This document shows positions 3,653-23,512 of a DNA stretch of 23,950 nucleotides, in pieces (within the stretch, counting starts at the first letter, position 1; every line of letters begins with the position of its first letter). The translations under genes and the position numbers were made by a program. The stretch covers positions 1-23,950 of IMG/VR virus record IMGVR_UViG_3300042691_000556. One strand, given 5' to 3'. The notes beneath the pieces were generated by a model, which did no database searches, was not told the origin of the DNA, and saw only the letters and a list, made by a program, of their open reading frames with translations. This stretch comes from a virus.

Positions 3653-3671
3653 CCTTCGTATGTGGAATAAC
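3653..3671 (+). promoter_or_regulatory. Candidate phage RNA polymerase promoter, copy 1 (capsid)
   Basis: CCTTCGTATGTGGAATAAC lies between the scaffold stop and the capsid ATG. A near-identical motif precedes the tail fibre gene (16186-16204) and a third is in the gene-free right end (23012-23030). T7 has its strongest late promoter, phi10, at this place. The core TATgTGGA resembles the TATAGGGA initiation part of T7-class promoters, but that parallel is inference. A 10-base palindrome GTTGCGCAAC follows at 3673-3682, and AATAACCTATAGGAG (with the capsid ribosome site) after it. Confidence 0.6.
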
Positions 3672-5386: not shown

Positions 5387-7833
5387 AAGTTGACGGTAGC
5401 CTAAAGTCGCTCCTACAGGGCGTGTCTCAGCAGCCGCCTCGCGATAGGCTGCCGGGGCAGTGCACGGAACAGGTCAATATGACGTCTGACCCTGTGCAGG
5501 GACTTGCGCGCCGGGCTCCTACCGATCTGGTGGGCGGGCTCGGCGCCTCGTCTAACGTGCGAGGATTTCACAACTTCGAGACTCGTAACGGGTCGAAGTT
5601 TATTGCTTACGTGCATGATGGCACGATCACCGTTACGGACTATAATGCGAACGTTATCCCGTGCGCAATTCAAGCAGGCGCAGAGGCGTACATCTCTGCG
5701 GCAGGACAGCTTGTGTTCGGTACGGTTGAGAACCAAGTCATTATCTCGAACAAGTCTATCATCCCGGCGATGAGTCCGTCTGTTAAGGCGTACGCTAACA
5801 AGGGCGCTAGCTCTAAGCACATGGGTATCGTGCAGGTACTTGGTGGCGCATACGGGCGCGAGTTCCGTATCAACGTTGACGGAGTTGTTGCTGCTATCTA
5901 CAAGCCGCCGAATGGCTCAGAAGCAGACATGATCGATTACGTTCGTTCTGCGTGGGTGGCAAGTCGCCTGTTCCAAGGACTTGTTGAACCTGCCGGAGAA
6001 TCTACTGATCTCGACGGTGCAGGATCGTATTTGAAGAAGACCGGGGTGTTCGCTACTGGCTACACTGTAAGCCGGTTCGAGGACATTATCCACATTCAGG
6101 CGAACAGCGGACAGACCTTTGAACTGTCGTGTTCTGACGATCAGGGCAACGTGAACATGAAGGTAATGACGGATCAGGTCGCAGATACTGCCGATCTACC
6201 GCGGATTGCCCCGCATGGGTACCTTGCCCGTATTGCTACGGAGACTGATCCAGAAGAGGACATGTTCCTCCAGTTCAAACTCAATACAGACGACGGCACT
6301 ACCCCAATCGGTACTGGCTTCGGCCAACCTGGGTACTGGCAAGAGTGCGTCGGCGACGGCGTTGAGTACAGGATCGATCAAGACACCATGCCGCATGTGC
6401 TTGAGTACAATCCAACCGCAAATGCCTTCGTATATCGAAAGGGCGAGTGGCAGGATCGTGAAGCAGGCACCGACATTTCAAACCCTAAGCCTAGCTTCAT
6501 AGGTAATGCGATCAACGACATTGCGACATTCCAGTCTCGTCTAGTGTTCCTTGCTGGCAGTTATGCCATCATGTCGAAGACTAATAAGTACGACGACTTC
6601 TGGATGGGCAGTGCTGCGCAGTTGATTGAGACTGATCCTATCGACATCAGTTCTACTGCAGTTGAGGCAAGCACTATGCTAGCCGTCGTTCCGCATAACC
6701 GAGACCTAGTTGTGTTCTCGCAGAAAGGACAGTTCATTGTTTACGGACGCTCTGCACTTACTCCTGCGAACGCCACTCTGGTTCTCACTACTGCTTTTGA
6801 AGCAGAGCTTAATGCTAAGCCTGTTCCTAGCGGACGCAACGTCTTCTTTGCGACGAACTACGGGCGCTACACTGGCCTCCGTGAGTTCTTCACTGAAGGC
6901 GGTACGGACATCAATGACACGCGGCCGATCACGCAGCAGATAACGAAGTACATCACTGGCAAGGTTACTAAGCTAGCAGCGTCGTCTAACTACGACACAC
7001 TGCTTGTACAGACCAACCAAGACAGGAATACTGTGTACGTGTACCAGTATATCTGGAATGACCAGAAGAAGGTGCAGGCTGCGTGGAGTAAGTGGGTTCT
7101 GCCGCACGAAGCAGTGTTCATGTTCTTCGACGAGGAAATCATCTACTTCATCTTGCGTGAGGGTACAGATCACTTTCTGTACCGCATGTCTCTGGATATT
7201 GTAGAGGACGGTGGCGTCGAGTACCCTGTGCATCTGGACTCTAGGTTCGACGTGTTCGACGTGTACACATCGTTCGTACTGCCGTACAACCGACTCGGTG
7301 CTAACGACCTTGTTGTAGTGCAGAGTACCAATTGTCCTAATCCTGGGATGACTGTACCGATCTTGTCCAAGGTCTATGACCCTGTTGAAGAATGGTGGAC
7401 AGTCACTCTGAAGTATGACATGAACGGCGGAGACGTTATTTGCGGTATCCCGTATCGCAGTAGCTACTGGCCCACTATGCCGCTTGTTAAGGATCAAGAC
7501 GGCGTTGTCATGGGTACTGGTAAACTGCGCGTCAAGAACTTCCTTGTGGCTATTGACGAGACCGGAGACATTAACGCTACTGTCATGGCTCCGGGGCAAG
7601 ACCCTGTTACTGTGTCGTTTGAAGGCAGGATTGTCGGCAACGCGCAGAACCAAGTTGGACGCCCGGTGCTTAGCTCAGAGCAGTTCGTAGTTCCGTTCCG
7701 TGAAGACACGTCCAGAGCAGAGGTGGAAATCTTTACTGCCTCGCATCTACCGATGACCTTGCTGGACATCGAATGGGTTGGGCAATACAACAAACGAGGC
7801 CGTCGTATGCAAGGCGGTGGAGGTCAGCAATGA
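5383..7833 (+). CDS. Tail tubular protein B (nozzle, T7 gp12-like)
   Basis: This is the hexameric nozzle at the tail tip that binds the fibres and gates DNA exit. The product has 816 aa; T7 gp12 has 794. The N-terminus S-L-L-Q-G-V-S-Q-Q-P-P-R-D-R-L-P-G-Q followed by N-M-T-S-D-P-V-Q-G-L-A-R-R is the family hallmark (the GVSQQ motif and the R-R-P-like turn). Further on, F-Q-S-R-L-V-F-L-A-G (about 384-393) and the long beta-rich propeller-like body with many aromatic residues fit the family; the last 15 residues are basic and Gly-rich. GGAGG at 5369-5373 is the ribosome site. The start and stop both overlap neighbours by four bases, so gp11-, gp12- and gp14-like proteins are likely made as a coupled set. 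Confidence 0.96.
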   Translation: MKVDGSLKSLLQGVSQQPPRDRLPGQCTEQVNMTSDPVQGLARRAPTDLVGGLGASSNVRGFHNFETRNGSKFIAYVHDGTITVTDYNANVIPCAIQAGAEAYISAAGQLVFGTVENQVIISNKSIIPAMSPSVKAYANKGASSKHMGIVQVLGGAYGREFRINVDGVVAAIYKPPNGSEADMIDYVRSAWVASRLFQGLVEPAGESTDLDGAGSYLKKTGVFATGYTVSRFEDIIHIQANSGQTFELSCSDDQGNVNMKVMTDQVADTADLPRIAPHGYLARIATETDPEEDMFLQFKLNTDDGTTPIGTGFGQPGYWQECVGDGVEYRIDQDTMPHVLEYNPTANAFVYRKGEWQDREAGTDISNPKPSFIGNAINDIATFQSRLVFLAGSYAIMSKTNKYDDFWMGSAAQLIETDPIDISSTAVEASTMLAVVPHNRDLVVFSQKGQFIVYGRSALTPANATLVLTTAFEAELNAKPVPSGRNVFFATNYGRYTGLREFFTEGGTDINDTRPITQQITKYITGKVTKLAASSNYDTLLVQTNQDRNTVYVYQYIWNDQKKVQAAWSKWVLPHEAVFMFFDEEIIYFILREGTDHFLYRMSLDIVEDGGVEYPVHLDSRFDVFDVYTSFVLPYNRLGANDLVVVQSTNCPNPGMTVPILSKVYDPVEEWWTVTLKYDMNGGDVICGIPYRSSYWPTMPLVKDQDGVVMGTGKLRVKNFLVAIDETGDINATVMAPGQDPVTVSFEGRIVGNAQNQVGRPVLSSEQFVVPFREDTSRAEVEIFTASHLPMTLLDIEWVGQYNKRGRRMQGGGGQQ

Positions 7834-8339
7834 ACTATGGAATGTTCGGCCTCCAAGCGTTCGGTTCGATGCTTGGTCAGCTTGGTAGCTACATGGCTGC
7901 TCAGAAGAAGGCCGAGGCCGACCGCGCTTGGCAGGACTACAACAACCGCATGACGCGTATGGCTGATGCTCAAAATCAGAACGCGCTTACTGCGAATGAG
8001 AACATGCTTCGTGAGCGAGTGCACACGATGCGTAAACAGATCGGTATGGCGGAGGCGGCTACAACTGCCTCTGCCGAGGTCGCTGCTGCTGCAACGGGTA
8101 CAACCGGACGTAGCGTGAATATGGTACTGTTTGACATCGAGCGTAATGCTGCTGGCAAACGTGAAGACCTTGAGCGCGACGAGAAGATGCAGCTTATGCA
8201 GATTGATAACAAGCGACAGCAGTCTGCATTCAGTGCGCAGGCGCAGCTTGATCTGCGTACTATTCCAGACCCGAACCCCGCGTCCTATATTCTTGGACTG
8301 ACGAGCGACCTCGGGAAGCTCTGGAAGCAGAACCAATAA
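7830..8339 (+). CDS. Internal virion protein, T7 gp14-like (169 aa)
   Basis: This is the smallest of the three ejection proteins; in T7, gp14 forms a pore in the outer membrane as infection begins. ATG 7830 overlaps the gp12-like stop (ATGA) and has GGAGG at 7819-7823; upstream codons in frame lie inside gp12 and are rejected. The product has 169 aa (T7 gp14: 196). A short amphipathic, Gly-rich N-terminus (residues 1-22) is followed by a long helix with N-N-R-M-T-R-M-A-D-A-Q-N-Q-N-A-L. Then come an Ala/Thr-rich stretch (75-95), the conserved T-G-R-S-V-N-M-V-L-F-D-I-E-R-N-A-A (about 93-110), and a second helix. This TGRSVN segment is typical of gp14-type proteins. Confidence 0.9.
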   Translation: MNYGMFGLQAFGSMLGQLGSYMAAQKKAEADRAWQDYNNRMTRMADAQNQNALTANENMLRERVHTMRKQIGMAEAATTASAEVAAAATGTTGRSVNMVLFDIERNAAGKREDLERDEKMQLMQIDNKRQQSAFSAQAQLDLRTIPDPNPASYILGLTSDLGKLWKQNQ

Positions 8340-8348
8340 GGAGCAACA

Positions 8349-11300
8349 ATGGCTGAACCCGGCCGTAGAGACGTAGTGCGTGATCCCTTCGCTCAACAGG
8401 GAGTTCAACAGCTCCCCGAGCGGGACCTTACTACGATGCCTGTCAAGAACCCGATGCAGTCTGGTGGCAACGGTTGGCAGCAAGAACAGAATAAACTGGA
8501 GCAAGCAATCTCCGGCTTGAACGGGGCCATTGCAGGCGTCCTTGACGTGAAGAAGGAGCAGTGGCAGACCGAGGGCCGTATTGCGTTCATGCAGGGCCAG
8601 ACGGAGCAGCAGATCGCCTCTACAGGTAATCGCTACACCATGCAGGGATGGCAGGCGCTTAATGCGTCTACTACTGCTTCCCAGTTCTACCAGAACGAAC
8701 TGCAGCGTATCCAGAACGGCGCCAGTGAAATGACGCCGCAGCAGTACGCGACAGAACTTACGCAGCGTCGTGCAGAGGCTCTTAGGAACCTACCGTCTGA
8801 TCCTGCTATTCGTCGCGTGTGGGCTGCTGCGTTCGATGACGTTGGACCTCGACTTGCTGCACAGCATACGTCTGCGCACAATACGTTCAATCAGCAGAGA
8901 ACTCAGACTGGTCTGCGGGATAATCTCCTTAGTACCTCGCGGACTAACAGTGACGCTACCCGTGTCATGCCGGGTAACGTCCCGCTGGCGCTCTCCCCTA
9001 GTGTCGTACGGCGAACGGTACAGTTTGCTCCCGGCGACGTGGACGTGCTTACCAAGACGATCCTAGGGGAAGCTGCCGGTGAGGGACCGGAGGGTATGGC
9101 TGCAGTGGCGCACGTCATTGTCAACCGTACTATCGACGGGCGTTGGGGTAACAGCGTTGCAGCTACTGCACAGCAGCCTCAGCAGTTCTCTACGTGGAAC
9201 GCTCCGGGCATGGGCGGCAACAATCCTGAACAGTGGGCTGGTACAGAAGCGTACAGCCGTGCTAGGCAGGTTGCATTGTCTGTTCTGTCTGGACGCCATG
9301 TCGATCCTACTAACGGTGCAACGCACTTCTATGCTCCTGGACGTATGGCACAGGCCCCTGCTTGGGCTGCAAATACAGAGAGCGAGAGCGGTGGTCCTAT
9401 CCAGATCGGTGGACACAGGTTCTCTGGTCGTATGCGTAATACGCCCGGTCAGGGAGACGGTGCTACAGAGGGTCCTAACAGTCCCGGTGTATCGCAGCCG
9501 GTTCTGATCCCGTCGCAAGCACAGGCTGCACAAGCCGCTGGCGTGACCACGGACGGTAGCCCTGCTGCCGATGGCACTACTCCCGGCCCGACTGCTGAAC
9601 AGCGCGGGCTCGGCGCGTACACTGGCGCTAGGCCGGCTCCTGCCACTACTGGCGGGCGCATCACGTTCTCACGTCCAGAGGAAGCTACTATCAGCGACGA
9701 CCTTCGTGGTCGAGTTACTGGTGCAGCACAGGCGCTTGGTCGCGATCTAGAGATTATCTCTGGTAATCGCGGTGCAGGCGGGTCTGGACGTAACGCTGCA
9801 GTTGGTGGTGCTCGTGGTTCGCAGCATCTGCATGGCAACGCTGTAGACATCAATCTGCGCGGTATGAGTGACGAACAGAAGGCGGAACTTGTTCAAGAGC
9901 TTCGTCGACAGGGTGTTACTCGCTTCGGAATGTACAGCGGCGGCAATGGCCTGCACGTAGACATGTCTGATGCACAGGGCGGTGAATGGTTCATGTTCAA
10001 TCGCTCTAACGCGAACATGAAGGATGCTCCGCAGTGGTATCGTGACTTGGCTGCGCAGGCGCCTCCGCCTCGTGCACAAGGACCTAGCGGTACTGATCCT
10101 AACCAGACTGGTGCTAGCCCGATGGCTGCTCCGCAAGCCGGTCCTCAGACACAGGTGCAGCAGCTTATTCGTGGGTCTGGTGCACCGCGTGCTGTACGGG
10201 CACAGGCGCTCACTGATGCTATGCTCATCCAGTTCCAGTCTGGATCGGATCAGCTGTATCGTGACGCCGGTGGTATTGGTATGTTGTACGAGCTTGGTGC
10301 TACTACACAGCAAATCCAGACCGTCCAGCGCGCAGCAGAAGCACACCGTACTGGCAAGCTGAACGAGTTCAATGTGGAGTCAATCCGCTGGAACAATCAG
10401 CAGCTTGCAGACATCAGCGCAGGCCGTGCTAGCCTTGACGACGTACTGTCTAGGATCGAGCAGCGCAAGGCGTCTGCAGCTATGACTGACACGCAGGCAC
10501 AGGCGCTTGCTGCTCAGGTTGTGGCTGCTGACAAGGAACGTGGTAATCGTATGAACCTCTCTCCAGAGGTCCAGCGCGAGGCTACGAACATCTTTGCGCG
10601 ACACGCAGACAGGACGTATACTGCAGAGAAGGCAGACGAAGAACTCAGGGCACTTGCTTCGAGGGCTGGTCTTCCAGAAGCACAGCTTAACGGCTTCATC
10701 CAGTCTATGTGGAACACTGAGCGACAGCAGCAGGCACAGCTTGCATCGGAAGCGCGGAAGCGTGCTGATGAGAAGGCTAGGTCGGACGCAGTTGAGGCTC
10801 GGGCTATGGCTGCATTGTCACAGGGTACTGGACTGAGCGGCGTTACTGGGTCTGTTATCCGCTACGATGAGAACGGTAACAAGACGGAAGTCGACGCACG
10901 GCAGTTCGCGTCTAACCAGATGTACGATCGTCTGTCAGCTAGTATGGCGTCGATTGTGCAGGGCGAGCGTGATCCTGCTATGCGAGGCCAGCTTGAGTCG
11001 CAGGGTGCGAGTATGCGTGACCAGTCGTTCTACAGTGCCATGCGCAGGCAGGGTGTTGTGAACGAGCGTCTGCAGTCACAGCTTACTGCTGCTAGCTCTG
11101 GAAGTATCCTCGATGCTACTACTGGCAAGATCAGGCCGGATGCCATGCAGGCGTTCGACATCTGGATGCGCATGTCGCGTGATCCGGGCGTTGGCTCTGC
11201 GTACATGCAGCAGTACTTCAAGGATGCTGATGGTCTTGCTCTGTTCAGGACTGCAGAGGGACTTGTGTCTGGTGTTGACATCGAGACGGCTCTTCGTAAG

Positions 11301-12284
11301 GCCGCAGAGACTATGCAGGTCAACCGTACCGAGGAAGGTCGGGCAGCTATCCAGAATAGCTACCAGCCCGGTGTAATCGAGCAACAGCAGATTACTACTC
11401 GTGTAAAGGAAGCCATGTCTACTATGGCGAACGACGGGATCATCTTCAATGGTTCTGTGAGTGAGCGTGACCGTGCAGACGCTATTGCACGTGCAGGCGA
11501 TCTTACGCCTAGGATCATGGAAGAGGCTAGTCGACTTCGTGCACTGCACCCGCATCATACGCGGGAAGTGAACATGAAGATCGCCATGGACCGTGTGCTG
11601 TCTAATACCGTTGTTGTCGGTGGGAACCTTATCCCTGCCTCTCCAGAGGCAGTGGGCAATAAGACTAACCATGCTGCACCAATGAGTATTCAGAACCGGA
11701 TGGGCCTTGCGTCGTACGGCGCAGACGCAATCAACCGTGCCGTTACTGACACTGTTGTGCGCGACTTGAACGCTGCCGCTACAGAGTGGATGCGTACAGG
11801 TAAGGACCCGATGAACGGCGCTGGTCGGTGGTGGTTTAACAACGCACCGTCGCGGCCGTGGAGCATGAACCCAGTCGAGTTGGCCGCTAAGGCTGGCGAG
11901 GCGTTTGGTGCTCCTACTGGATACAGCGCTAGTCAGCAGTCGAGAGACAACGCTGCTCAAGCTGCTCCGCAGTTCAGACTTAACTACAATGAGCGTACCG
12001 GACAGATGTCCGTTGTGCTTAAGACTGGTCCGAACAACGAGTGGATGGATGGTCCCCCGATCGTGTACGATGCCCGCGCAGTTGGTGAGCGGTATCGTCG
12101 TGAGGTTCTGGACAAGCCGAGTACACTGTCGAATGTGTTCAGGTCGATCCGTGACAGCCTTACGCAGTCTCGCGTTATGCCGTATCTTGCTCCGACTACT
12201 TCTGGTGGTCCGCAGGATGCGCCTACTCCGCGTATGCCTAATGCACCAGCAACACCGCCGGCTAATCCTCTACAGCCGCGCTAA
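8349..12284 (+). CDS. Internal virion protein (gp15-like) with SleB and M15 hydrolase domains
   Basis: This is a 1311-aa ejection protein, about 560 residues longer than T7 gp15 (747). Residues 1-230 are helical. Residues about 232-341 match the SleB-type cell-wall hydrolase family: the signature I-L-G-E-A-A-G-E-G-P-E-G-M-A-A-V-A-H-V-I-V-N-R with probable catalytic Glu241, then the F-S-T-W and T-H-F-Y segments. After a Pro/Gly/Ala-rich linker, residues about 425-560 carry a zinc peptidase M15-like domain, with the perfect S-x-H-x-x-G-x-A-x-D motif (S491, H493, D500) and the second zinc site H536-V-D538. A second linker (about 566-605) leads to 700 residues of mostly helical gp15-like body. 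AAGGAG at 8338-8343 sets the start. It would degrade both glycan and peptide parts of peptidoglycan during DNA entry. The hydrolase assignments are strong; the gp15 relation rests on order and the C-terminal style. Confidence 0.88.
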   Translation: MAEPGRRDVVRDPFAQQGVQQLPERDLTTMPVKNPMQSGGNGWQQEQNKLEQAISGLNGAIAGVLDVKKEQWQTEGRIAFMQGQTEQQIASTGNRYTMQGWQALNASTTASQFYQNELQRIQNGASEMTPQQYATELTQRRAEALRNLPSDPAIRRVWAAAFDDVGPRLAAQHTSAHNTFNQQRTQTGLRDNLLSTSRTNSDATRVMPGNVPLALSPSVVRRTVQFAPGDVDVLTKTILGEAAGEGPEGMAAVAHVIVNRTIDGRWGNSVAATAQQPQQFSTWNAPGMGGNNPEQWAGTEAYSRARQVALSVLSGRHVDPTNGATHFYAPGRMAQAPAWAANTESESGGPIQIGGHRFSGRMRNTPGQGDGATEGPNSPGVSQPVLIPSQAQAAQAAGVTTDGSPAADGTTPGPTAEQRGLGAYTGARPAPATTGGRITFSRPEEATISDDLRGRVTGAAQALGRDLEIISGNRGAGGSGRNAAVGGARGSQHLHGNAVDINLRGMSDEQKAELVQELRRQGVTRFGMYSGGNGLHVDMSDAQGGEWFMFNRSNANMKDAPQWYRDLAAQAPPPRAQGPSGTDPNQTGASPMAAPQAGPQTQVQQLIRGSGAPRAVRAQALTDAMLIQFQSGSDQLYRDAGGIGMLYELGATTQQIQTVQRAAEAHRTGKLNEFNVESIRWNNQQLADISAGRASLDDVLSRIEQRKASAAMTDTQAQALAAQVVAADKERGNRMNLSPEVQREATNIFARHADRTYTAEKADEELRALASRAGLPEAQLNGFIQSMWNTERQQQAQLASEARKRADEKARSDAVEARAMAALSQGTGLSGVTGSVIRYDENGNKTEVDARQFASNQMYDRLSASMASIVQGERDPAMRGQLESQGASMRDQSFYSAMRRQGVVNERLQSQLTAASSGSILDATTGKIRPDAMQAFDIWMRMSRDPGVGSAYMQQYFKDADGLALFRTAEGLVSGVDIETALRKAAETMQVNRTEEGRAAIQNSYQPGVIEQQQITTRVKEAMSTMANDGIIFNGSVSERDRADAIARAGDLTPRIMEEASRLRALHPHHTREVNMKIAMDRVLSNTVVVGGNLIPASPEAVGNKTNHAAPMSIQNRMGLASYGADAINRAVTDTVVRDLNAAATEWMRTGKDPMNGAGRWWFNNAPSRPWSMNPVELAAKAGEAFGAPTGYSASQQSRDNAAQAAPQFRLNYNERTGQMSVVLKTGPNNEWMDGPPIVYDARAVGERYRREVLDKPSTLSNVFRSIRDSLTQSRVMPYLAPTTSGGPQDAPTPRMPNAPATPPANPLQPR

Positions 12285-12291
12285 CATAGAT

Positions 12292-12311
12292 GGAGGGCGC
12301 GAATGCCCTCC
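12292..12311 (+). other. Intergenic hairpin between gp15- and gp16-like genes
   Basis: Arms GGAGGGC (12292-12298) and GCCCTCC (12305-12311) make a perfect 7-bp GC-rich stem with the 6-base loop GCGAAT. No T run follows, so it is not a standard terminator. It could pause polymerase, be a processing site, or protect mRNA ends. It lies where an upstream ATG (12290) would open the next gene, which argues for the GTG start at 12332. Confidence 0.6.
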
Positions 12312-12331
12312 TACTATCTAAGGAGATTACA

Positions 12332-15300
12332 GTGGACAATACTGAAGCTGTTGACGCAGCTATCGCCCAAGGTCTTCAACGACAGGGCATTCTAATGCCG
12401 GGCCAGCAGCCACAGACCACTGCTGCACCTATTCAACGTGCGCCTAGGCTCCCTACAGATTACAGCCCTGATCCCAACAAGGGCCAAGAAGAAGAATGGA
12501 TCGCTAACGGTGGATCGTGGTCGAGCAACGGAATGCTCGCTGGTCCTGTCGCGTTTGGTGGTCTGGTTGGGCGCAGTTTCACAGACGGTGGTAACACTGC
12601 CGTCAGTATCTACAAAGACCTTGCTAGGCTTGTCCATGCAGGCGATGCAGACCCTGAGTGGAATGCAGAAGCCAAGATGCGGTGGCTTGAGCCGCGCAGG
12701 CAACAAATCCCAGGTCCGCAGATACACAGGTTCTTGCAGACCCGTAATGCTGCAGAAGCACAGATGATGTTCGATGACCAGCAAGCTATGCTGCGGTCGC
12801 ATCGTATTGCTGAACACTTCGGTGTAGGTAGTTCTCTTGTGGCAGGCTTCATTGCTGGTGGTATTGACATTGATACTCCTATTGCTCTTATGTCAGGCGG
12901 CGTGTCTGCTGGTGCTAAGGCAGGGATCATGTCTACTCGCGCAGGCCGTGTACTGTCTGGTGGACTTAGCGGTGCCGCTGCTGGTACTGCTCTCGGTGCT
13001 GTGGACTTCGCCGTTAACCCAACTGCTGACCTTGACGACATCATTACGTTCGGATTGTTCGGCGGTGGCTTCGGTGTAGTTGGCGGTGCACTGTCGCGCT
13101 CTAGCCGGCAAGCTGCTGATCTACACACTCGGCTTATCGAGGAACACGGAGAGAACATCACTAATGGAAGGCGGCCTAATCCTACCTACGGGGAGGTGAC
13201 TGGCAACCCTATTACGTGGCGGTCTGGAGCAGACGACATCGCTGTGCGTAATGCCAGCGAAGCAGACGTTGCTCCTAACAAACCCGTAGCCGCTGCTACT
13301 GGTGCTGTTGCAGAAGCTGCAGAACGTCCTGATGGTCCAATGGTGTTCCGCCTTGAAGACCTCGATGCAGCAGAGACTGGTACTATCTCGGACCTCGGTT
13401 CTACTGCCGGTGCCGTGCAGGTCAACGTCCGCAGTGCTACTGCTGGCGTGGACAACTCGCGGTACGTCGCCGTAATCAACGACACGAAGGAGTGGGCTCG
13501 GAAGAACAGTGGTGTTCTAGACGAGTTGTACGATTGGGGTATCAGCACTCGCAATGCTGTGTCTACTGTCGCTGGACGGAGTGCAGAGCTTCTTAGCAAG
13601 ACTGCATCAGCGATCGGCCTTGGTACTGACTGGCACAAGTTTGCTCGTGCAGAGGGCTCGTTGGTCGCTCGGAGGTTCATGTACGAAATCCTTGAGAGCC
13701 CGGCTGGTGTAGCACGTAATGCTACGTCTGCTGCTGCTTTGCGTGAAGGGTACCGTCGTGAGTTCGCTAGAGAAATGACGGGCTATATGGAGGCCATTAA
13801 AGAGTGGGCTCCGCTTAATCACGGTACTAGCTGGTCCAGTGAGTTCTTCGAGACGAACAAGTTCCGCAGGGCTACTGAGGACTTCAACGAGAACGTTATC
13901 GCTGAACTGATGGCTAGGCGCTTCGGCGGGAACCGTACACAGGACCCGCTCATTCGCAAGGCTGCAGACTCCGTGGACAGCATGTTCGCAAAGGAGATTG
14001 AGATTGCACAAGGACGCGCTGGCGCTATTGGCGTTGCCGCGTACAAGGACCTCAAGCCACAGAGCGGGTACATTCCGCAGTGGTGGTCTGGAAGTAAGTT
14101 CAATCGGATGATCAACGAAGCGTTTTCGCAGGGCGGTGATGCTGCTCGTACAGCCAAGCGTCAGGAGATTATCAACTTCATCGACGCACAGTACGCAAAG
14201 CTGCATCCGACTATGAACGCAGGTGATCGAAAGATCGTTGCTACTGCCGTGTTTGACCGTGCTATCAGCAAGGATCAGGGGCATTCTATGAACCTGCTCG
14301 GTTTGCTGTCTGGTGACGAAAGCACTGTGTTCCGTGCTACGCTTGCACGTAACGGACTTGATCCGCAAGCAATCGATAGGATCGAGCGTGTACTCAGACA
14401 GTCTCGTGAAGAGGCTATGCGACCCGGCTTTACTAAGAGCCGCATCGACATCGACTACCGTGCTACGTCTGGTAATCTTCGTATGATGGACTTGCTTGAG
14501 ACTGATCTGTTCAGTATCATGAACCAGCGTGCTAACAAGACGTCTGGATTGTCTGCACTCGCTCGCAAAGGCATTACATCGCTCGAAGACTTCGAGTTGA
14601 TCAAAGGTGCTGCGCTTGCCGAGGACAAGGCGTTCTGGCGTGACTACCAGCGTCCTGCTCCTAGGGCTGGTATGGACGGTATTGCAGATCGTGCACAGGA
14701 CTTTATCAACGAGCCACGTCCTCTTAAGGACACGGACTTTGATGACGTCTGGAAGTACTTCAATGGCGGCTACCTTGGTGACATGAGCGATGGTCAGGCT
14801 ATCCATCGTGTCATTAAGATGACGCGGTTGTCGTTGCTCAACCAGCTTGGTCTTACACAGGCCGCTGAGACTGGTACCATCGCAGGTGCAGTTGGGCTTA
14901 AGCACTTCTTCCGTCATGCTGGTGAAGAGATTGGTACGTACCTTGGTAAAGGCACTCCGCTCAGGAACGAGCTAGAGCACCTTGCGTTCTTCTTGCCGTC
15001 AGAGAACATGTTCAAGATGGACATGATCCAAGACTTTAGTAAGATGACGGCATCGAGCGAACTGTTCGCGAAACTTGACCGTGCGCTGGATACTGGTCTG
15101 CACATGCAGGGCAAGCTGAATGGCTTCTTTGCTGTGCGCGATATTCAGCAGAGGATTGCTGTTACGTCTGCTACGTCTCGTATCTTCGAGGCTATCCGTA
15201 ATAACAACGCTGGACAGTTTTCTGATTTGCGTCTCAAGGATATGGGCGTCGATCTGGACGTGCTTAAGAAGTACGTTGACGACGGCACAGTCAAGTTTGT

Positions 15301-16156
15301 TAACGGGCGCCTTGAGCGTCTCAATGCGGATATGTGGGATGCACAGGACTTGGAGAACTTCAGGACCTCTATGGTGCGAGTTACCAACCAGCTTGTGCAG
15401 GAAGCAATGATCGGAGAAAGCAACAGCCTGTTCCACAAGAACGGCGTCGCTCGATTGTTCTTCCAGTTCAAGAGCTTCCCGCTACTGGCGATTGACAAAC
15501 AGTTCGGTAGGAACATGCGTCTGGCTGATGAGCACACCGTCAACATGTTCTGGATGGGCATGATGACTGCAGGCATGGCCTACTACATTAGGCAGACCAT
15601 GAACAACAGGCCAGAGAAGCTTGAGTGGGACGAACTCGCTAAGGGTGCGCTTAACTACTCGAACATGGCTGGTTGGATACCTATGTGGTACGATCCTATT
15701 GCTACGATGCTTGGACAGGAAGAGTACAAGATCGAGCAGTTCGGTGGCCGTCAGGGTATCCTAAGTGTTCCTGCTGCGTACAGTGTAGTCAATCGACTTG
15801 CTATGCTGCCGCAAGCTGCATTCAAGATCGGTGCGTCTCCGACTGGGCTTACTGAGTTCACTACTCGCGATGTGTCTGCTCTGCAGGCCATCCCGTTGAT
15901 TGGTAACACCTACCTAATCAATGGAGGATTGAACGCACTTAAGTCCAACGGGAACCGTGACCTGAGCAAGCTACTTCCGATTAATCCTGCAGAGCGCAAC
16001 GAAGATGGCTCTGTTAAGACTATGGGAGATAGGTTGCTCGGTGGGCAACGTCCTATTGATACTGCACCGCGCACAATCGCTGATAGTGTTCCCGACGCAA
16101 GTCGTGATCCTGATGCACCGATCCGTGGGATCGCAGAAGCTATCTTTGGACAGTAA
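12332..16156 (+). CDS. Internal virion protein, T7 gp16-like, without N-terminal transglycosylase (1274 aa)
   Basis: This is the large ejection protein that in T7 spans the inner membrane and helps pull in DNA. The start is GTG 12332 with AGGAG at 12321-12325; ATG 12290 is in frame but lies in a hairpin and lacks a ribosome site. From GTG the product is 1274 aa; T7 gp16 has 1318. Residues about 155-255 are Gly/Ala-rich and hydrophobic (L-V-A-G-F-I-A-G-G-I-D-I-D-T-P, then repeated GG/GA turns), matching the membrane-active part of gp16. The C-terminal region has the conserved F-F-Q-F-K-S-F-P (about residue 1043) and a following hydrophobic segment. The first 150 residues lack the E-S-x-F and gly-rich pattern of a lytic transglycosylase, which T7 gp16 has there. 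The wall-degrading role appears to have moved to the previous gene. Confidence 0.9.
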   Translation: MDNTEAVDAAIAQGLQRQGILMPGQQPQTTAAPIQRAPRLPTDYSPDPNKGQEEEWIANGGSWSSNGMLAGPVAFGGLVGRSFTDGGNTAVSIYKDLARLVHAGDADPEWNAEAKMRWLEPRRQQIPGPQIHRFLQTRNAAEAQMMFDDQQAMLRSHRIAEHFGVGSSLVAGFIAGGIDIDTPIALMSGGVSAGAKAGIMSTRAGRVLSGGLSGAAAGTALGAVDFAVNPTADLDDIITFGLFGGGFGVVGGALSRSSRQAADLHTRLIEEHGENITNGRRPNPTYGEVTGNPITWRSGADDIAVRNASEADVAPNKPVAAATGAVAEAAERPDGPMVFRLEDLDAAETGTISDLGSTAGAVQVNVRSATAGVDNSRYVAVINDTKEWARKNSGVLDELYDWGISTRNAVSTVAGRSAELLSKTASAIGLGTDWHKFARAEGSLVARRFMYEILESPAGVARNATSAAALREGYRREFAREMTGYMEAIKEWAPLNHGTSWSSEFFETNKFRRATEDFNENVIAELMARRFGGNRTQDPLIRKAADSVDSMFAKEIEIAQGRAGAIGVAAYKDLKPQSGYIPQWWSGSKFNRMINEAFSQGGDAARTAKRQEIINFIDAQYAKLHPTMNAGDRKIVATAVFDRAISKDQGHSMNLLGLLSGDESTVFRATLARNGLDPQAIDRIERVLRQSREEAMRPGFTKSRIDIDYRATSGNLRMMDLLETDLFSIMNQRANKTSGLSALARKGITSLEDFELIKGAALAEDKAFWRDYQRPAPRAGMDGIADRAQDFINEPRPLKDTDFDDVWKYFNGGYLGDMSDGQAIHRVIKMTRLSLLNQLGLTQAAETGTIAGAVGLKHFFRHAGEEIGTYLGKGTPLRNELEHLAFFLPSENMFKMDMIQDFSKMTASSELFAKLDRALDTGLHMQGKLNGFFAVRDIQQRIAVTSATSRIFEAIRNNNAGQFSDLRLKDMGVDLDVLKKYVDDGTVKFVNGRLERLNADMWDAQDLENFRTSMVRVTNQLVQEAMIGESNSLFHKNGVARLFFQFKSFPLLAIDKQFGRNMRLADEHTVNMFWMGMMTAGMAYYIRQTMNNRPEKLEWDELAKGALNYSNMAGWIPMWYDPIATMLGQEEYKIEQFGGRQGILSVPAAYSVVNRLAMLPQAAFKIGASPTGLTEFTTRDVSALQAIPLIGNTYLINGGLNALKSNGNRDLSKLLPINPAERNEDGSVKTMGDRLLGGQRPIDTAPRTIADSVPDASRDPDAPIRGIAEAIFGQ

Positions 16157-16185: not shown

Positions 16186-16204
16186 CCTTCGTATATGGAA
16201 TAAC
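16186..16204 (+). promoter_or_regulatory. Candidate phage RNA polymerase promoter, copy 2 (tail fibre)
   Basis: CCTTCGTATATGGAATAAC differs from the copy before the capsid gene at one base of 19. It lies 16 bases before the tail fibre ATG, where T7 has promoter phi17. Conservation in non-coding DNA at two such sites, plus a third copy at 23012-23030, is the main support. Confidence 0.6.
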
Positions 16205-23081: not shown

Positions 23082-23145
23082 CTAAGACTACTGGATAGAA
23101 TAGATACACACTGTACTAAGCCCCTCTAGTAATCCGATCTTTGAT

Positions 23146-23162
23146 ACTAGGCCATGCTGATT
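23146..23162 (+). repeat. 17-base direct repeat, copy A
   Basis: ACTAGGCCATGCTGATT matches 23496-23512 at 16 of 17 bases. The copies lie exactly 350 bases apart. Copy B overlaps the -10 box end and start point of the sigma70-like promoter; copy A lacks a matching -35 box. Confidence 0.5.
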
Positions 23163-23468: not shown

Positions 23469-23497
23469 TTTACAGGCTCAAATCCGGTTTCTATAAC
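23469..23497 (+). promoter_or_regulatory. Sigma70-like promoter, candidate early promoter
   Basis: TTTACA (23469-23474), a 17-base spacer and TATAAC (23492-23497) give 5 of 6 matches in each box with ideal spacing. The predicted start is near 23504 and points to the right, out of the window, as expected for host-polymerase early promoters at the left end of a T7-like genome joined in a circular assembly. Confidence 0.6.
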
Positions 23498-23512
23498 TAG
23501 GCCATGGTGATT
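23496..23512 (+). repeat. 17-base direct repeat, copy B
   Basis: ACTAGGCCATGGTGATT differs from 23146-23162 at one base. It is followed by GTGATTG repeats (23507-23513 and 23519-23525, also at 23314-23320), which may be binding sites. Confidence 0.5.

Follow-up and report, generated by a model that had tools for sequence, protein, structure and literature searches.

We have found that a T7-type phage encodes a protein of 1311 aa in which two different kinds of peptidoglycan hydrolase domain, one SleB-type and one of the M15 zinc peptidase family, lie in tandem. We consider it likely that this protein is the ejection protein at the gp15 position and that the phage's murein hydrolase activity for entry resides in it, with SleB predicted to act on glycan and M15 on peptide. 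The sequence studied (the window) is a virus fragment of 23,950 nt, comprising positions 1 to 23,950 of record IMGVR_UViG_3300042691_000556. The genes around the one of interest run gp11-gp12-gp14-[1311-aa protein]-gp16-tail fibre, with a nozzle protein gene preceding the gp14 counterpart (Pfam); the gene sits in the slot of T7 gene 15, between the gp14 and gp16 counterparts. The closest relative of the fragment is Atuphduovirus NMeng1, whose own gp15 counterpart is 83% identical across the 1311-aa protein (tblastn). Judged by sequence, the phage appears to be an Atuphduovirus-like T7-type phage whose host would be that of its relatives.

Table. Features of the ejection-protein region of the window, with the evidence for each
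Feature	Positions	Strand	Evidence and details
gp14 counterpart	7773..8339	+	Pfam T7_gp14 E=2.5e-16
gp15 counterpart, predicted internal virion/ejection protein with SleB and M15 domains	8349..12284	+	1311 aa; PHROG 15649 E=1.7e-172; gene order
N-terminal region related to phiKMV gp36 N-terminus	8430..8795	+	aa 28-149; hhalign
SleB-type lytic transglycosylase domain (predicted), predicted catalytic Glu241	9003..9434	+	aa 219-362; PF07486 E=2.1e-16; 4fet/4f55
Disordered Ala/Gly/Thr/Pro-rich linker	9435..9650	+	aa 363-434; pLDDT <50; composition
Peptidase M15_3 zinc domain, predicted Zn ligands His493, Asp500, His536; Arg474; Asp538	9651..10079	+	aa 435-577; PF08291 E=3.8e-9; 1lbu fold
Mostly helical C-terminal body, presumed core/tunnel part	10080..12281	+	AF2 helix, low confidence; conserved in rhizobial autographiviruses
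gp16 counterpart without SLT domain	12290..16156	+	1288 aa; PHROG 342 E=1.4e-128; no Pfam SLT

The preliminary description had called the protein a gp15 counterpart. Its gene slot agrees with this name, as does a link to phiKMV gp36, an internal virion lysozyme protein encoded in the same slot: a profile of those relatives of the 1311-aa protein that do not carry M15 scored 63 against phiKMV gp36 in hhalign, compared with no more than 26 in any of 30 shuffles (E=1e-6). At the sequence level, homology to gp15 of T7 is not borne out, profile comparison giving no direct similarity between the two proteins (hhalign P about 0.3), and a fold search with the gp15 body returned no match, the low-confidence model (pTM 0.32) being too poor to compare. 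For the homologue in Atuphduovirus P284, an HHpred match to gp15 with 99% probability has been reported (PMC12736776). The protein is probably located in the virion and ejected from it.

T7 was said to have its one transglycosylase in gp16, and Pfam does place an SLT domain at aa 15-127 of that protein (E=1.7e-31). With T7 gp16 as this positive control, neither the gp16 counterpart encoded here nor that of Atu_ph03 gave any Pfam match at all, SLT included, and the match of PHROG 342 to the gp16 counterpart starts only at profile position 225. The gp16 counterpart has thus lost the transglycosylase of T7. Given that the SLT domain of T7 resides in gp16 and that the gp16 counterpart here is without it, the predicted wall-cutting role has moved to the gp15 counterpart. 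Murein hydrolase domains in gp15 counterparts are already known from SP6 gp36 and K1E gp35 (PMC8954989).

Both domains are matched by Pfam profiles above the curated gathering cut-offs and both are seen in a structure model, as the preliminary description had anticipated. Hydrolase_2 (PF07486) matches aa 244-358 with 60.8 bits, the cut-off being 27, and Peptidase_M15_3 (PF08291) matches aa 457-538 with 37.1 bits against 23.2. An AlphaFold2 model of aa 203-577 contains two confident domains, at about aa 219-362 and 435-577, with a disordered linker between them. The interval first proposed, 9045-9965 (aa 233-539), does contain the motifs of both domains, but the complete domains are wider (see the table); the linker, first described as Pro/Gly, is Ala/Gly/Thr/Pro-rich, P, G, A, S and T together making up 68% of its residues. 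The model of the SleB domain resembles the solved SleB structure 4fet (Foldseek E=5e-5, TM 0.80 by target). The expected Glu241 signature is present as well: Glu241, in LGEAAGEG, aligns with the GES Glu of 4f55 and 4fet and is invariant among 22 aligned relatives. On the strength of profile and model, we regard the domain as a predicted lytic transglycosylase.

The M15 domain has its motifs at the places first noted, S491-Q-H493-L-H-G-N-A-V-D500 and H536-V-D538, and its model resembles the zinc DD-peptidase 1lbu, more weakly than the SleB domain resembles its own match (Foldseek E=0.02, prob 0.99). It could be argued that SleB alone is active and that M15 is a zinc domain, degenerate or without catalytic function, whose role is to bind peptidoglycan or to serve as a scaffold. 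Three residues before the third zinc ligand, where M15 enzymes usually have their acid/base residue, 1lbu has Asp and the protein studied here has Asn533; many relatives manage without an M15 domain; and the Foldseek neighbours include hedgehog proteins. Hedgehog proteins, which are M15-fold relatives, act mainly as ligands. Nevertheless, the HxxxxxxD...H zinc triad (H493, D500 and H536) and R474 are invariant among the 22 aligned relatives, and host M15_3 enzymes likewise have no acid at the -3 position while retaining the Asp of the HxD motif, which is kept here as Asp538. We therefore think it unlikely that the domain is non-catalytic. Among curated functional models, that of the L,D-endopeptidase MepK matches the domain best (E=4.7e-6). 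We do not adopt this identity, since the match scores 26.6 bits against an NCBIfam equivalog cut-off of 185 and is not specific, other, generic M15_3 domains matching MepK as well.

Two existing labels would assign the whole protein to some other role. PHROG 15649 and several GenBank records name it an endolysin, and this would make it the enzyme of host lysis, which we regard as very improbable. The gene is part of the core/ejection operon, and its product has 1311 aa; the close relatives NMeng1 and Atu_ph03 encode a separate muramidase of 330-335 aa (that of NMeng1 carries a peptidoglycan-binding domain), whose matching region the fragment itself does not cover. Because these relatives have a separate muramidase endolysin, the 1311-aa protein would not be needed as a lysis enzyme, and the label is misleading. 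The other label stems from the description of Atu_ph02 and Atu_ph03 as having a DarB-like protein (PMC6630229), and reading the 1311-aa protein accordingly as a DarB-like antirestriction protein seems to us scarcely credible. It is true that PHROG 10089, 'DarB-like', matches Atu_ph03 at E=5e-17 over aa 354-854, reaching past M15. However, the tblastn similarity between the 1311-aa protein and Atu_ph08 is limited to aa 230-567, that is, to SleB and M15, and the methylase, helicase, LPD and InPase domains that are present in the giant protein of Atu_ph08 are all absent from the 1311-aa protein (Pfam). Our analysis thus corrects both 'endolysin' and, for the T7-like homologues, 'DarB-like'.

If the 1311-aa protein is indeed an ejection protein with entry murein hydrolase activity, it would leave the virion with its SleB and M15 domains flexibly tethered, SleB would be expected to cut glycan strands and M15 to cut peptide stems or crosslinks, and the wall would most likely be opened in this way around the trans-periplasmic conduit. 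The wall of A. tumefaciens has about 30% L,D-crosslinks, compared with 1-5% in E. coli, and the peptidoglycan of Hyphomicrobiales is highly crosslinked (PMC11527210). The second enzyme may be present because the host peptidoglycan is of this kind; a two-step opening is plausibly useful against a highly L,D-crosslinked Hyphomicrobiales wall. A two-enzyme ejection protein would thus permit a direct test of whether the chemistry of the host wall selects phage entry enzymes.

Each part of this arrangement has precedents. The ejection apparatus of T7 has an entry transglycosylase, as SleB would be here, but it is a single enzyme of SLT fold, in gp16 instead of the gp15 slot. In SP6 gp36 and K1E gp35 the murein hydrolase has likewise shifted from gp16 to the gp15 counterpart, with no SLT detected in gp16, but there it is one phage-lysozyme domain near the C-terminus, whereas the SleB and M15 pair is internal. 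The tail-knob lysin gp13 of phi29, a virion lysin with dual glycan and peptide activity (PMC9863714), combines glycan- and peptide-cutting domains in a single entry protein, as predicted here; it differs in pairing a lysozyme-like domain with M23, in the Gram-positive host and in its location at the tail tip and not in the ejection core. For Gram-negative phages, one catalytic domain is the rule among entry lysins (PMC9863714), and according to a 2017 review endopeptidase activity had been demonstrated for just one such lysin, P5 of phi6 (PMC5380687). The suggestion that a dual enzyme is unusual therefore stands for Gram-negative phages (PMC9863714) but is tempered by phi29 gp13, by the gp15 slot of SP6 and K1E and by the SleB and M15 pair of Atu_ph08. 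What is new is that these parts come together in one probable ejection protein of T7 type, and in a phage of Gram-negative bacteria.

The gp15 counterparts of rhizobial Autographiviridae (Atu_ph02/03, Alfirin, NMeng1 and P284) share the slot and the SleB domain, and are annotated merely as endolysin or cell wall hydrolase; all except that of NMeng1 are less than 60% identical to the 1311-aa protein. SleB is present in every alphaproteobacterial gp15 counterpart examined. M15 is an insert directly after SleB that is found in the protein of the fragment, in NMeng1, Atu_ph03 and Alfirin and in a few metagenomic contigs, and is absent from the Rhizobium phages Palo, I38, TM34 and others. The M15 domain is not essential, as relatives without it infect Rhizobium too. 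On a tree of the gp15 C-terminal body the M15-bearing proteins form two groups. A single clade, and hence a single origin, of the M15-bearing proteins was rejected on this tree (AU p=0.0045). The presence of M15 has changed at least twice, by gain or loss, which suggests repeated use of this domain.

Two records among the relatives bear on hosts and lifestyle. NMeng1 (OQ540924.1) is recorded as a Nostoc phage, whereas its Atuphduovirus relatives infect Agrobacterium or Rhizobium, and what it really infects may be an alphaproteobacterium within the Nostoc culture. We also note a SleB-bearing gp15 counterpart inside a 1.5 Mb bacterial contig from Pannonibacter (L099, with L028 listed alongside), which suggests an integrated T7-type phage.

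The SleB and M15 pair recurs outside T7-type phages. It forms the N-terminal head of giant polyvalent proteins of Agrobacterium phage Atu_ph08, Ochrobactrum phage POI1126 and many rhizobial prophages, with open frames of up to 5,145 aa in genomes; the paper on Atu_ph08 noted a 'cell wall hydrolase followed by a peptidase' and gave the homologues in Atu_ph02/03 the name DarB-like (PMC6630229). These DarB-like giants, which are presumed to be injected, have homologous SleB and M15 domains in the same order as the 1311-aa protein, but in them the pair is N-terminal and borne on an unrelated scaffold, with InPase, Eco57I methylase, SNF2 and LPD39 domains in Atu_ph08. Their SleB domains form a separate clade (99/89) apart from those of gp15 counterparts, and the M15 tree of giants and gp15 counterparts has long branches. 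M15 may have been added beside SleB in some lineages, the same pair heading the giant proteins that would be injected by rhizobial phages. Two giants (L150 and L153) carry a VanY-type M15 domain in place of M15_3 after SleB, as seen in an alignment in which L127 and L138 look similar, Pfam VanY having been tested for L150. As a VanY-type domain replaces M15_3 in some giants, it is the combination of SleB with an M15-type peptidase that recurs.

A search of phages with M15 alone returned atuphduoviruses and giants plus two weak matches elsewhere; plasmids gave no match to M15, and a single-protein scan of viral contigs found nothing. In the rhizobial family the full tandem is rare (2 of 200 genomes, the seed genome included), and among the best matches listed for 289 alphaproteobacterial genomes there were no other full tandems. 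The family of a Pseudomonas genome, in which no positive control existed, yielded none in 198. We do not claim specificity for Hyphomicrobiales: all the genomes in which the tandem turned up are of rhizobial type, but rhizobial phages were also the source of the query profile. It is possible, though we hold this only tentatively, that SleB and M15 constitute a mobile two-enzyme module for wall penetration, shared by injected proteins of Hyphomicrobiales phages that are otherwise unrelated, namely the T7-like gp15 counterparts and the polyvalent giants; M15 would then be an L,D- or D,D-endopeptidase well matched to a host wall with many L,D-crosslinks. One viral contig (L031:5983-8025) encodes a 681-aa protein that begins with SleB and M15, possibly a third scaffold.

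Lastly, we note two repeated sequences elsewhere in the window. The 19-nt motif CCTTCGTATRTGGAATAAC occurs at 3653-3671 and 16186-16204, upstream of the genes for the major capsid protein and the tail fibre; 0 copies are expected by chance, near-copies lie at the corresponding places in NMeng1, and the motif is probably a promoter for the phage RNA polymerase. An imperfect 32-nt direct repeat (23131-23162 and 23481-23512) lies at the right end of the fragment, where genes are sparse.
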